From IMG/VR virus record IMGVR_UViG_3300023196_000081, positions 1 to 25,866 of that record: a DNA stretch of 25,866 nt; one strand, written 5' to 3'. Below the pieces are notes generated by a model. It searched no databases and was not told the origin of the DNA. It saw only the letters and a list, made by a program, of their open reading frames with translations. The position numbers were made by a program, and so were the translations under genes. The DNA comes from a virus. Shown piece after piece: positions 1-5,719 of this stretch (positions are counted from its first letter, which is position 1; each line of letters begins with the position of its first letter).

Positions 1-619
1 GCTGACTTGTTGGTCCAAAATCCAAATCGCTTTCCAAATCATCAAACCCGCTGCCTACTACCTTCGCAGGTATCTCAGCCACCATTCTCGCATTGGGATG
101 AAATTGTTTCAACTTAAGCAGCTCCTGTAGTGGCTTTGCCTTAACCAGTAACTCGATCTCCTCCATATCAAAAACCAATGCCGTATTGGTAGAAGGTCGG
201 AACTGGATGTAATTCTCGGCATCAGCCTTAGTCGCAACCACCACCAGCAGACCACCGTCCGCGCACTCGTGTTCAATCGTATTAACTTGCGGTATCTGTG
301 TCAGGTTCATACTTTCAGCCCAAACCTCCAGCGCCTTGTACCCCCTGACCATCCCGTTGACCGCCTTCTCGTAATCCTCCCTGTTTTGTGCAGCCCAAAT
401 CCGCTGTAACTGAATCATCAACTTCTCACGCATGGACGGCTCACACAAATCCTGCAACCTATTGATGCCCCATTTATCCTCCATTGCATCCTTGACGTTA
501 ATCAGCTGCACTAATTTGGTCTGCTTGAACAACTCAAACGGATCAATTGGAAACGGCTGCGGCTCCGTCAACTTTCCACGCTTAATCTTGGCATCAATCC
601 GATCCTTTGCCTTCGCCAT
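1..619 (-). CDS. Partial gene, unrecognised; candidate terminase small subunit
   Basis: The reading frame is open for 206 codons from an ATG at 617-619 and leaves the window at base 1, so the C-terminus is missing. It is preceded by a G-rich ribosome-binding site (GGGGGTTAGAT before ATG). The protein starts MAKAKDRIDAKIKRGKL, which is basic, and continues as a mostly helical protein with no membrane segment. I do not recognise a family with confidence. The terminase small subunit idea rests on position and character. It follows the replication genes and the repeat-rich non-coding region, and in a circular map it would lie just upstream of the missing stretch before the portal gene, where the packaging genes belong. 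It could equally be a replication or regulatory protein. No catalytic motif is visible in the part present. Confidence 0.75.
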   Translation of the reverse strand, partial: MAKAKDRIDAKIKRGKLTEPQPFPIDPFELFKQTKLVQLINVKDAMEDKWGINRLQDLCEPSMREKLMIQLQRIWAAQNREDYEKAVNGMVRGYKALEVWAESMNLTQIPQVNTIEHECADGGLLVVVATKADAENYIQFRPSTNTALVFDMEEIELLVKAKPLQELLKLKQFHPNARMVAEIPAKVVGSGFDDLESDLDFGPTSQ

Positions 620-630
620 ATCTAACCCCC

Positions 631-830
631 AAATCCAAAATAGACAAAAATAGACAATCTACAAATTACATTTTGAAATCACAATATCGCAATAGACAAA
701 TTACGTGTATTATATATACACGTAATGTAATTTGTCTATCGCAATAGACATATTCAAAATAGACAAATTACATACCCTATAGACAAATCGACAAATAGCA
801 ATTTGTCTATTGCACCCAAATAGATACCCA
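631..830. repeat. Iteron-like array of ATAGACAAA repeats in the non-coding gap (possible origin or operator cluster)
   Basis: This 222-base gap (620-841) has no gene and is very AT-rich. It holds nine copies of the 9-mer ATAGACAAA. Six are exact: plus at 640, 692, 759 and 779; minus at 731-739 and 802-810. Three have one mismatch: 650, 744 and 787. Three copies extend to ATAGACAAATTAC (692-704, 759-771, and inverted at 727-739). Some neighbouring copies are 10 or 20 bases apart, about one or two helical turns. Clustered short repeats in an AT-rich region beside a primase-helicase gene fit a phage or plasmid-type replication origin. They also fit a multi-site operator controlling the next gene. 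No protein that binds them is known from the sequence. Confidence 0.8.
689..742. promoter_or_regulatory. Nested palindrome inside the ATAGACAAA array
   Basis: ATTACGTGTAT (700-710) is perfectly inverted as ATACACGTAAT (716-726) around the 5-base spacer TATAT. Outside it, GCAATAGACAAATT (689-702) faces AATTTGTCTATCGC (729-742), which is inverted except for one base. Two ATAGACAAA repeats are therefore held in mirror orientation around an AT-rich centre. This could be a dimer or tetramer binding site or a melting or cruciform element of an origin. The centre is not followed by a U-run, so it does not look like a terminator. Confidence 0.7.
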
Positions 831-841
831 AAAACACCCAA

Positions 842-2941
842 TTAAAAAGCCTCTTTATGTTGACCTTTTTGATAGTCAAGGCTATCACGCCACATCAATT
901 TACCGTCAATTTGCACCCCGTAATGCTCGCTTAATTGCTCCTTTGACCGATACCAGATCGTATTAAAGTGCTTTAATTCTGCTGAATTGCTAACGTCAAC
1001 ACCCATCGAATTGAGCAATTCCTGACGTACAGCAGAGACCAACACAACACGTTTGTTGCCCCCTTGCTCGGTCTGCTGGATGAAGTTTTCCTTCATCACC
1101 TTGAGGAAAGCCTCATACGCCTTCTTCTGATTCTTGCCCTTGCCCAAGGCACTTTGCTTGGACTTGTGCTGCTCCACCGAGTTTGTTACGTCATCCCCAG
1201 CACCTTTAATCGCCAAACTGATTAGCGGAAACGGACCCTCTGACAGAGGTATTTCCACGCAAACAAACGGGTAAATAGCCCCATCCTCACCGTCCTTTTG
1301 TTTTGTGATGGTCAGCAAACCCTCTGCCTTACCCTCAACGCGAGTAATCTCCAGCTCGGTATCCACCGCCCCTAACAGGCTGCTGTGACCACGCAAACCC
1401 TTATCTAGGTTCTTACCGTTATGGTGCAAGACCATCACGGCGCAGTCGTACCGCTGCTGAATCCTGCCGACATTGATAACCCACTCCCCCATCGCCTCAC
1501 TCGCGTTCTCATTGCCACCGCCAAACGATCTAGCTAACGTATCAATCTGTATCAGTTGCAAACGCTGCTCACGGCGATTCAATTCCAGCACCAAGGCATC
1601 CACCTCCACCAGCAATAACTCGATATCTTCACGGCTATTTCGCAGGTTGAGCTGATGCCTGATTAAGTAAATTGGCGTGTTCTCAGGTGTCTCGTTGTGT
1701 ATCCTGCAAGCCTTCATCCTTGCACCGACACCGCCGTGACCCTCTCCAATGATCTGCAATACAGCACCCTGATTGATGACGGCCTTACCCATCCAATGCC
1801 GTCCCGCTGCAATGGCCTCGGCAATGTCCAGAGCAATGAACGACTTAAAGCTGGCTGGTGGCCCAAACAGCGCCGAGAATGACTTGTGCGGCACGACACC
1901 CTCAATCAGCCACTCGACTGGCTCATCCTTGATCGCGTCCCACGACTCAATCTGGAACCTCTTACGGGTTGGTGGTGCAGGTAATGCGTCTGCATTACTA
2001 GGCAGGTACTCAGGATAGTCATCGTCATCCAAACCCACACTCATCGCCGCATCGAATGCGCTGAAATCGAACTTATGCTTCTCTTGGAACTGCGTTGGTA
2101 GATCAATCACGTCACCAGCTAACGGCTCCTGCGACTTGGCTAGTTCAGCCAGCAGCGCCCTCGTCCCACCGCCCTCTATCCACTCCACAGCGTCATCGCC
2201 CAGACCTGTGACAGGCAGGGTCACTATCCTGATAGTCTTGGCTATTCCGAATAATTCTTTAACTACTCTTTTAGCGTGCTGCCAACCTGCTGCATCGTTG
2301 TCAGGCAGTATGACCACATTCGCACCTGCAAAGTATTCCGTAATCGCATCAGGCCACGATCCTGCACCCGTGTGACTGGTCGTGGCAGTCGCACCTAAAC
2401 CAATTACGGCATCTGCTGCCTTCTCGCCCTCGCAGAGGTAGATCGCCCTACCCGCTGACTTCGCTTGCAGCAGACTGGGAAGTGCGTAGGGGACGATGCG
2501 AACGTCACCCAGACCGTGACCCTTCACCCCATCATTACGCACCAGCCTGTAGTCCTTGCCCTTCTCCGTATCCGTCTTGTACCTGCGCTTAATGAAGAGG
2601 CTGTCCCCATCCTCATTACGGTAGTGCCACTCCTGTTCTAATTCCATCAGGGTCTTAGGTTTTTGTGTGTACGTTATCGGCGACAGGCTGGCAAACACGT
2701 CTGGCTTTGGCGGTAACTCAGGCAGCAAGTGCCTGTCCCTGATGCACTCAAACACGTCCAGTTGATTGCACCCAGCGTGACAATGAAACAAGTATTTTCC
2801 TGAGTCATCCTCACTTATGGATAGGGATGGATTCTTGTCCCCCTTACCCTGCCCGTGGGACGGTACTGGGCAGGATGCAACCCATTGACCGTTGACCTGC
2901 TTGGCATTGCCTAGCTCCTTGGCTATGTGTTCTGCTGACAT
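842..2941 (-). CDS. Bifunctional primase-helicase (CHC2-like zinc finger, TOPRIM, RepA-like ATPase)
   Basis: This 699-residue protein probably primes and unwinds phage DNA at the replication fork. The N-terminus has a zinc-finger-like set: C24, H29, C54 and C58. A TOPRIM domain follows, with EGEKAAD at 171-177 and the acidic DND at 214-216. The C-terminal half is a RecA-fold ATPase of the RepA/AAA_25 type: Walker A GPPASFKS (360-367), Walker B LQLIQID (461-467), then VLHHNGK (504-510) and LRGHSSLLGAVD (516-527). The last 120 residues are charged and may bind partners. The ATG is preceded by AAGGTG. The gene lies after the replication genes but is separated from them by a strong terminator, so it may have its own expression level. 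No DNA polymerase accompanies it in the window. Confidence 0.9.
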   Translation of the reverse strand: MSAEHIAKELGNAKQVNGQWVASCPVPSHGQGKGDKNPSLSISEDDSGKYLFHCHAGCNQLDVFECIRDRHLLPELPPKPDVFASLSPITYTQKPKTLMELEQEWHYRNEDGDSLFIKRRYKTDTEKGKDYRLVRNDGVKGHGLGDVRIVPYALPSLLQAKSAGRAIYLCEGEKAADAVIGLGATATTSHTGAGSWPDAITEYFAGANVVILPDNDAAGWQHAKRVVKELFGIAKTIRIVTLPVTGLGDDAVEWIEGGGTRALLAELAKSQEPLAGDVIDLPTQFQEKHKFDFSAFDAAMSVGLDDDDYPEYLPSNADALPAPPTRKRFQIESWDAIKDEPVEWLIEGVVPHKSFSALFGPPASFKSFIALDIAEAIAAGRHWMGKAVINQGAVLQIIGEGHGGVGARMKACRIHNETPENTPIYLIRHQLNLRNSREDIELLLVEVDALVLELNRREQRLQLIQIDTLARSFGGGNENASEAMGEWVINVGRIQQRYDCAVMVLHHNGKNLDKGLRGHSSLLGAVDTELEITRVEGKAEGLLTITKQKDGEDGAIYPFVCVEIPLSEGPFPLISLAIKGAGDDVTNSVEQHKSKQSALGKGKNQKKAYEAFLKVMKENFIQQTEQGGNKRVVLVSAVRQELLNSMGVDVSNSAELKHFNTIWYRSKEQLSEHYGVQIDGKLMWRDSLDYQKGQHKEAF

Positions 2942-4935: not shown

Positions 4936-5404
4936 GTGAGTATCCGTAACTTGCAATTAATACCGCATCCGACCTGCCATCATCCTTGACCCTCTTGAAC
5001 AAATGTTGCTCCTTAGGGTACATCTCCATCGCACGGTGGCGGCTGCCGTCCTTACCCTTCTGTACCTTCATGGCCTTCTGCCATGTAGCGGGTGGCACTA
5101 CGGTGGTAGCAATCTCCATAGCCGCCAGTATCCCCAAGGTGATACCGTAACTCTGCCCAAAGCTGAACATGGATGCAACGCCCTGACCAGGCATCGCGCC
5201 CAGCCGTTCAAGGTATGCACCATCAGGTTTGAAGGTACGGATTAACTCCGATAGGCGCTGCGCTGATATTTGGCGCTTTGCCTTGCCATTACGGTCTAGC
5301 GTGACTGTCGGCATATCCTCCACGCTCTCAATCTGACCATCCACCAAGAGGCATAGAGCGCCATTTAGACCCACATCGATGCCGAGTATGCGTGAGTGCG
5401 TCAT
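4928..5404 (-). CDS. RuvC-like Holliday junction resolvase
   Basis: This 158-residue protein has the RNase H-like fold signature of RuvC-type enzymes that cut four-way DNA junctions. GIDVGLNGA carries the first acidic residue (D10), GAYLERL carries E66, and the C-terminal DDGRSDAVLIASYG carries D141/D142 and D146. The length matches the family. In phages such enzymes resolve recombination intermediates or branched DNA before packaging. The start overlaps the stop of the upstream regulator gene (ATGA at 5401-5404), and its own end overlaps the next small gene, so it belongs to one coupled operon starting at the control region near 5.7 kb. Confidence 0.9.
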   Translation of the reverse strand: MTHSRILGIDVGLNGALCLLVDGQIESVEDMPTVTLDRNGKAKRQISAQRLSELIRTFKPDGAYLERLGAMPGQGVASMFSFGQSYGITLGILAAMEIATTVVPPATWQKAMKVQKGKDGSRHRAMEMYPKEQHLFKRVKDDGRSDAVLIASYGYSHD

Positions 5405-5628
5405 AGCTCGCCTGTGACCTGTTTAAGGCTATCCTGACGTGCCTTGATAAGCGCAGCCAATGCACCCTCCAGCTTGATAACGGTGTCGTAGAGTGGCCTC
5501 GTATTGCCATTAAGCCAGCGGCTACTCTGGCTCTGATCGATGTCCGCAACACGGCAGACATCAGCCATCGTGTAGCCCACGGCCTCGGCTCTCTCCTTAA
5601 TTGCTTTGATGGGGTCTGTTTGTTTCAT
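5401..5628 (-). CDS. Small XRE/Cro-type helix-turn-helix regulator
   Basis: This 75-residue protein is basically one HTH domain. Residues 19-46 read as helix-turn-helix, with YTMADVCRVADI and the recognition helix QSQSSRWLNG (32-41), ending in an NTRPLYDTVIKLE segment common to XRE proteins. It is the first gene of the leftward operon and faces the divergent promoter region that also drives the rightward early block. It is therefore the likely binder of the palindromes at 5661-5675 and 5692-5707, acting as a Cro-like switch or autorepressor. No clear Shine-Dalgarno sequence precedes its ATG, suggesting low translation. Without an integrase in the window, lysogeny cannot be concluded. Confidence 0.85.
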   Translation of the reverse strand: MKQTDPIKAIKERAEAVGYTMADVCRVADIDQSQSSRWLNGNTRPLYDTVIKLEGALAALIKARQDSLKQVTGEL

Positions 5629-5679: not shown

Positions 5680-5707
5680 ATAATGTGGGTATTGACAGGG
5701 TTGTCAA
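5680..5707 (-). promoter_or_regulatory. Leftward sigma70-type promoter for the regulator/replication operon
   Basis: On the minus strand the -35 box is a perfect TTGACA (5707-5702). After 16 bases there is CATTAT (5685-5680), four of six matches to TATAAT. It points to the regulator gene about 50 bases away. It overlaps the rightward promoter, so both cannot be occupied at once. Confidence 0.5.
5692..5707. promoter_or_regulatory. Palindrome TTGACA-GGGT-TGTCAA forming both -35 boxes
   Basis: The rightward -35 box (5692-5697) and the leftward -35 box (5702-5707 on the minus strand) are exact inverted copies separated by four bases. A dimeric HTH regulator bound here would cover both -35 elements. 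It is a good operator candidate for the gene at 5401-5628. Confidence 0.6.
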
Positions 5708-5719
5708 CTGTGATATGAT
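5692..5719 (+). promoter_or_regulatory. Rightward sigma70-type promoter for the early gene block
   Basis: The -35 box is a perfect TTGACA (5692-5697). After 16 bases comes TATGAT (5714-5719), five of six matches to consensus. The expected start of transcription is near 5726, giving a short leader before the first early gene at 5767. This is the strongest promoter-like sequence that I can find in the window. Confidence 0.75.

Follow-up and report, generated by a model that had tools for sequence, protein, structure and literature searches.

A probable iteron origin of replication beside a phage primase-helicase gene, whose DNA word appears to change together with the C-terminal domain of the helicase

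An array of short repeats located beside the primase-helicase gene of a phage is most likely the site at which that phage starts to copy its DNA, an iteron origin that the primase-helicase would itself recognize through its C-terminal domain. The array was found in a linear IMG/VR fragment of 25,866 nucleotides (record IMGVR_UViG_3300023196_000081, positions 1 to 25,866; hereafter "the window"), which comes from a phage with SU10-type portal and capsid genes. The reading is based on comparison of the locus with those of its relatives, in which arrays at the same place are built from different words. The first-pass annotation had left the choice between an iteron origin and a multi-site operator, and the comparison gives good support to the former part of that suggestion and much less to the latter.

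The array consists of nine copies of the 9-mer ATAGACAAA in both orientations within 171 bp (positions 640–810), and the earlier count of six exact and three one-mismatch copies was correct. Four of the exact copies are on the plus strand (640–648, 692–700, 759–767, and 779–787) and two are on the minus strand (731–739 and 802–810). The one-mismatch copies are all on the plus strand, at 650–658 (ATAGACAAT), 744–752 (ATAGACATA), and 787–795 (ATCGACAAA), the last of these overlapping the copy at 779 by one base. The perfect 11-bp inverted repeat that had also been described is present (700–726, arms 700–710 and 716–726, with a five-base AT spacer), and it forms the center of a hairpin core between two opposed iterons, the copies at 692–700 and 731–739. 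Chance as an explanation for the array is excluded by shuffles. Matches to ATAGACAAA with at most one mismatch numbered 19 in the whole window versus 6.7 ± 2.2 in shuffled sequence, and nine of the 19 are inside the 171 bp. Similarly, one exact 7-mer occurs eight times in 220-bp segments at 601–840; when the whole window was dinucleotide-shuffled 30 times, the highest count at any place was three to five. A sigma-70-like promoter (TAGACA-18-TATAAT, 11 of 12 positions, minus strand, 709–738) is located in the palindrome and directed at the next gene, and the total number of promoter-like matches in the array region equals the chance expectation. An Rfam search returned sub-threshold hairpin look-alikes only.

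The array is intergenic, as originally placed, between the stop of the primase-helicase gene (842) and the start of a gene at the left edge of the window (619), both of which are on the minus strand. Reading leftward, the gene order is a RuvC-like resolvase, an exonuclease, an SSB-like gene (named from synteny with the CRP phages), the primase-helicase (842–2941, minus strand), the array, and the left-edge gene (2–619, minus strand). The primase-helicase is a protein of 699 residues that has an AAA_25 (RepA-like) helicase domain (Pfam, E = 3.8e-35), a weak Toprim match, and PHROG primase matches. The product of the left-edge gene, which lies downstream of the array and precedes the terminase small subunit gene, is 223 residues long when complete, as in the near-identical contig L005 (L005:4036–4707). 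No Pfam, PHROG, or PDB relative was found for it, and comparing its predicted structure with the PDB gave no noteworthy match. Its family is conserved across 64 loci; the N-terminal part is largely helix, and the C-terminal tail is acidic. In L005, the left-edge gene is followed by the genes for the terminase small and large subunits (TerS and TerL), the former encoding a product that resembles Sf6 TerS. The stretch of L005 that matches 620–841 is identical to that of the window, array included. This is little evidence of constraint, because the left-edge gene is also unchanged and the differences between the two contigs are mosaic and concentrated further upstream. Elsewhere in the window, overlapping and opposed promoter-like sites (TTGACA-16-TATGAT on the plus strand and TTGACA-16-CATTAT on the minus strand) were noted at 5680–5719, between a small Cro/CI-type HTH gene and the rightward genes; this is likely a divergent early control region.

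To relate the array to those of other phages, we gathered relatives through their terminase and left-edge proteins. In scans of viral contigs, the 9-mer array was found in the near-twin L005 and in no further phage, and in the relatives an array of another word is found at the same place. The first-pass annotation had proposed that absence of the array from relatives sharing the flanking genes should count against the element; this would have misled, as what is absent is the 9-mer, and a different-word array is present instead. Of the 64 loci encoding the left-edge family, 57 had enough upstream sequence to score, and 46 of these had at least five exact copies of one 7-mer within 220 bp, a density reached in none of 1140 shuffled sequences and in 14 of 1140 windows drawn at random from the same loci. 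The relatives' arrays are built of a word of 7–9 bp in both orientations, typically spaced at 9–11 bp, and lie about 30–200 bp before the left-edge gene. The words include GGTTACAAA, GGAGACAAA, CACCACAAA, GGTCGAATC, ACGGAATGG, AGCCGACT, ATCAGAA, GTATAAA, and many others; clustering sorted 54 loci into 23–38 different words, the number varying with the threshold. In long records, all or nearly all copies of the word are confined to the array. Of 45 non-redundant arrays, 38 have a stem of 6 bp or longer between two opposed copies, with an apex that is mostly AT-rich (TATA, TTAA, CTAAAG), and in a few of the 38 the stem is built from the iteron copies themselves. Judged by this shared sequence layout, the palindrome of the window is the hairpin core common to most of its relatives.

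Several other candidate arrays were evaluated during these searches. L007 and L008, which were obtained from pattern scans of viral contigs for a ATAGACAA array, were chance matches, that of L007 being three copies inside a terminase gene. In ctvy9321 (L011, MW202496), tandem GACGTG hexamers at 5403–5510 all run in the same direction, lying within a small gene or at its start, next to a resolvase gene; they are not a comparable array and look like a coding repeat. No array was found upstream of TerL in ctjtQ328 (L009), whose TerL is 68% identical. In phage ctyzp037 (L010, MW202711), a second GGGACA array with the same word as the main array was observed at L010:9263–9360, ahead of a phosphoesterase gene that is close to the terminase genes, and is possibly a second origin element or an operator. 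A second high score, within the primase gene of L010, was a coding repeat.

Arrays were also found beyond the left-edge-gene family when loci were fetched by the helicase. Among 64 new viral loci, an array was located 3′ of the helicase gene in 44, compared to none of 53 regions 5′ of it and none of 158 random segments; the remaining 20 were below the array threshold. In bacterial genome contigs, mostly proteobacterial, an array was 3′ of the helicase gene in 26 of 75 loci, versus none of 73 regions 5′ of it and two of 185 random segments. Those 26 loci (in contigs L187–L266) have at least five copies and 28 more have four, the 49 loci other than the 26 being below threshold. They are from Burkholderia, Paraburkholderia, Pandoraea, and others, and often have GGGAA or CGGGA words. 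The array-bearing RepA-type helicase loci in bacterial contigs are probably prophages or integrated elements. Among known phages, Rhizobium phage 16-3 (DQ500118) has eleven exact copies of CGTGACAA that extend from the helicase stop codon (L101:4088–4447), directly 3′ of the RecA-family ATPase gene p101; from its sequence, this array is likely the replication origin of a well-studied temperate phage. Phage RHph_Y3_1 has nine GTTCCCA copies 3′ of its helicase gene, and in Vibrio phage 1.210 a GGACA array is found one gene beyond the helicase, on its downstream side. The left-edge gene was undetected in the fetched stretches of these three phages. Mycobacterium phage Thonko, Gordonia phage Ligma, and Caulobacter phage GB2A have the helicase, and no array was recognized near it. 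No mapped origin for well-known phages such as Rhizobium 16-3 was found in the papers searched. Nor did we find, in open-access journals, a paper describing these arrays, and a term search of the paper on the CRP phages (PMC12629253) turned up no mention of repeats or of a replication origin.

As to what reads the word, sequence covariation predicts that it is the primase-helicase encoded next to the array, by way of its C-terminal domain. The clearest small set is that of four cultured Roseobacter phages. CRP-811 and CRP-823 each have ten exact copies of ACTACAAA, and CRP-821 and CRP-831 have copies of TGTATAAA at nearly identical positions and orientations, while TerL, TerS, SSB, nuclease, and portal are almost identical between CRP-823 and CRP-831. 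Across all proteins shared by the CRP phages, positions that follow the word number 34–35 in the primase-helicase, 7–10 in the left-edge protein, and 0–1 elsewhere, with the exception of g19. SSB, PDDEXK, TerL, and TerS have none or one such column in the four phages. The small protein g19 also follows the word in this set, and a true copy of it is present only in CRP-811 and CRP-823. Of 35 word-following columns in the primase-helicase, 33 are at alignment positions 643–750, in the final 110 columns, which is the C-terminal domain.

The same association was seen over a wider range of phages. In 69 non-redundant pairs whose helicase cores were more than 80% identical, motifs were the more alike the more identical the C-terminal domains were (Spearman rho 0.68, permutation p 0.0005). 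Corresponding values for other proteins in the same pairs were 0.19 for the left-edge protein (p 0.19), 0.17 for the helicase core, 0.08 for the N-terminus, −0.01 for TerS, and 0.07 for TerL. Pairs were restricted to similar cores because distant phages differ everywhere; in all pairs, the correlation is weak for every protein (0.13–0.32). The test was repeated with loci fetched by the helicase alone, after removal of contigs used earlier, and gave a rho of 0.93 for the C-terminal domain versus 0.13 for the helicase core (93 pairs from 31 non-redundant loci). This represents new sequences and not a new lineage, because those loci fall within the broad groups already sampled. TerS and TerL were rejected as readers of the word, being without correlation to it. 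Neither protein that the first-pass annotation had suggested as a binder is favored: motif similarity does not track the left-edge protein, and the two HTH proteins of the Roseobacter phage set do not track the motif.

The C-terminal domain comprises residues 580–699 (positions 845–1204, minus strand), of which about 603–686 are predicted to form a winged helix that would be the part reading the iterons. In pairs of phages with different words, divergence is about 0.05 up to the neighborhood of residue 580, where it climbs to about 0.5, and it is greatest at 650–669. AlphaFold2 produced a confident winged helix (a helix, two strands, two helices, and a two-strand wing), with pLDDT above 90 for most of it. 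In that model, the helix at residues 653–674 (H3; positions 920–985, minus strand) is in the recognition position, and it overlaps the stretch in which such pairs diverge most. Structure comparison (Foldseek, VIA) listed the winged helices of CRP/FNR regulators, MukE-MukF, ORC/Cdc6, and MCM, with a best Z of 8.9, which is middling and indicates the general fold only; none of these matches was strong enough to name a specific origin-binding family. A PDB sequence search with the domain returned nothing significant. In the nearest pair of loci, L029 and L037, the words are one base apart (CACTACAAA and CACCACAAA), and the winged helices differ by A656S, Y662N, and L664G, all of which are in H3. 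L024, which has the CACCACAAA word as L037 does, shares residues 656 and 664 with L037 and not 662. The N-terminal parts of the primase-helicases of L092–L099 and L010 align poorly with that of the window, with matches starting in the helicase core, while the helicase and C-terminal domain are shared; from these alignments, the primase part may have been exchanged in those phages.

The explanation that competes most directly for the same observations is that the array is an operator, at which binding by the C-terminal domain controls transcription of the left-edge and terminase genes while replication begins elsewhere. The promoter-like site in the palindrome aimed at the left-edge gene and the short distance between the relatives' arrays and that gene are as an operator would have them. 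However, arrays accompany the helicase gene in phages in which the left-edge gene was not detected, and up to eleven copies around a hairpin with an AT apex represent origin-like anatomy. A replicative helicase serving solely as a repressor would also be unusual. We therefore consider this explanation unlikely, noting that operator and origin roles may coexist. A related proposal, that the sites are bound by a phage repressor (the window's HTH protein, 5401–5628, or another regulator) and were diversified by immunity selection as in stoperator phages, draws on the multiple sites in both orientations and on the Cro/CI-type HTH gene within the window. It is highly improbable, since there is no ATAGACAAA site near that gene and, in the CRP phages, a change of word leaves the wHTH protein 98–99% identical, and no column of the second HTH protein follows the word. 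The CRP relatives are also mostly without an integrase, and the paper describing them suggests that they are strictly lytic (PMC12629253).

That the array might instead be a pac or cos site bound by the terminase small subunit is suggested by the position of the TerS gene, next after the left-edge gene and two genes downstream of the array's upstream neighbor, and by the resemblance of its product to Sf6 TerS. This we regard as extremely unlikely, as motif similarity is independent of both terminase subunits and TerS is identical in CRP-823, CRP-831, and CRP-821 despite their different words. The last alternative is neutral hitch-hiking, in which the C-terminal coding end and the array are swapped as one recombination block with no functional dependence between them, and the word has another reader. 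The two are physically adjacent and the genomes are mosaic, and block exchange alone could link them. Yet all copies of a word change in concert with their positions conserved, divergence starts at the domain boundary in several clusters, and where the word differs by a single base, the predicted recognition helix differs too. The left-edge gene, although as near to the array as the C-terminal coding end, does not follow the word, which argues that proximity alone fails to explain the link. In addition, other genes separate the array from the helicase gene in L010 and L102. Hitch-hiking as the whole explanation is thus very doubtful.

If the array is the origin, we envisage that several primase-helicase subunits would bind the iterons through their C-terminal winged helices and gather at both sides of the AT-rich hairpin. 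They would then help to melt the hairpin, or use it as a single-strand structure for loading or priming, and the primase-helicase would load as a helicase hexamer and prime synthesis. The downstream left-edge and terminase genes may be transcribed out of the array, and a regulatory role of the same binding is possible because the promoter-like site in the palindrome faces the left-edge gene. Against the origin reading, GC skew runs almost monotonically through five complete circular genomes and leaves the array unmarked; GC skew, which had been put forward as a check, was uninformative as an origin marker.

The proposed origin has similarities to several known systems. In the satellites SaPI and PICI, as described in PMC7581432 and PMC6092414, the origin immediately follows the 3′ end of the initiator gene, with iterons to either side of an AT-rich region, and the C-terminal domain of the helicase reads the iterons; according to PMC6092414, this arrangement is shared by no other known bacterial replicon. 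The array at 640–810 is likewise directly 3′ of the primase-helicase gene, a likeness of position only. Iterons are on both sides of an AT-rich region in the window and most of its relatives (the 38 of 45 arrays with a flanked stem), and the helicase C-terminal domain is the likely reader, based on covariation and the predicted winged helix. Unlike those systems, the primase-helicase has the RepA-like AAA_25 as its sole significant Pfam domain, with no D5- or P4-type domain detected in the window or in five relatives, and, unlike the PICI satellites, the window phage has its own virion genes, including portal and capsid. As both the helicase type and the satellite nature differ, we do not class the window as one of these systems, although it would work like SaPI/PICI and P4.

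The alpha protein of phage P4 is a single polypeptide with primase and helicase parts, whose C-terminal domain binds the origin by reading short iterons. The window protein similarly unites the AAA_25 helicase, PHROG primase matches, and a predicted C-terminal winged helix, with a helicase of a different family. P4 has two elements, ori and crr; one array is present in the window, which is a fragment, and L010 has a second. The P4 origin-binding domain was absent from the structural matches listed, an absence that is not informative. At oriV of RSF1010 (IncQ), the hexameric helicase RepA acts at an iteron origin with hairpins for priming, and a separate protein, RepC, binds direct iterons of about 20 bp. 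The window phage shares the RepA-like helicase, but the words of the window and its relatives are 7–10 bp, occur in both orientations, and appear to be read by the helicase and not by a separate protein. Bacteriophage lambda (PMC4488673) also has a phage initiator (O), iterons near an AT-rich element (ori lambda), and specificity that differs between related phages; its iterons, unlike those of the window, are 19 bp, lie inside the O gene, where the window array is intergenic, and are read by the N-terminal half of a non-helicase protein.

Why the words should be so diverse can be addressed more tentatively. It is possible, at odds a little below even, that a large class of phages with RepA-type primase-helicases, along with elements in bacterial genomes, keep re-coding their origin, the winged helix and all iterons changing together among phages that are otherwise nearly identical because cross-recognition is harmful. 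Harm would come from co-infecting phages, satellites, or decoy origins stealing the initiator. In lambda, extra copies of the origin block phage growth (PMC4488673), which by analogy offers a plausible reason for phages to diversify their origin words. If true, origin specificity would be an arms-race trait, like immunity or incompatibility.

Overall, the array is real and functional-looking, and is probably an origin. A likely replication origin is thereby assigned to a large group of phages from fresh and marine waters, most of them uncultured, as well as to known phages such as Rhizobium 16-3. An origin layout that was thought to be special to phage satellites would thereby occur in ordinary phages with another helicase. 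The loci also appear to hold an unusually clear record of coordinated change in a protein domain and a DNA word. In them, nature has matched at least two dozen DNA words with a winged-helix domain each, some of the words only one base apart, and with this series it should be possible to test by what changes such a domain comes to recognize another word and what makes phages replace the password to their origin again and again.
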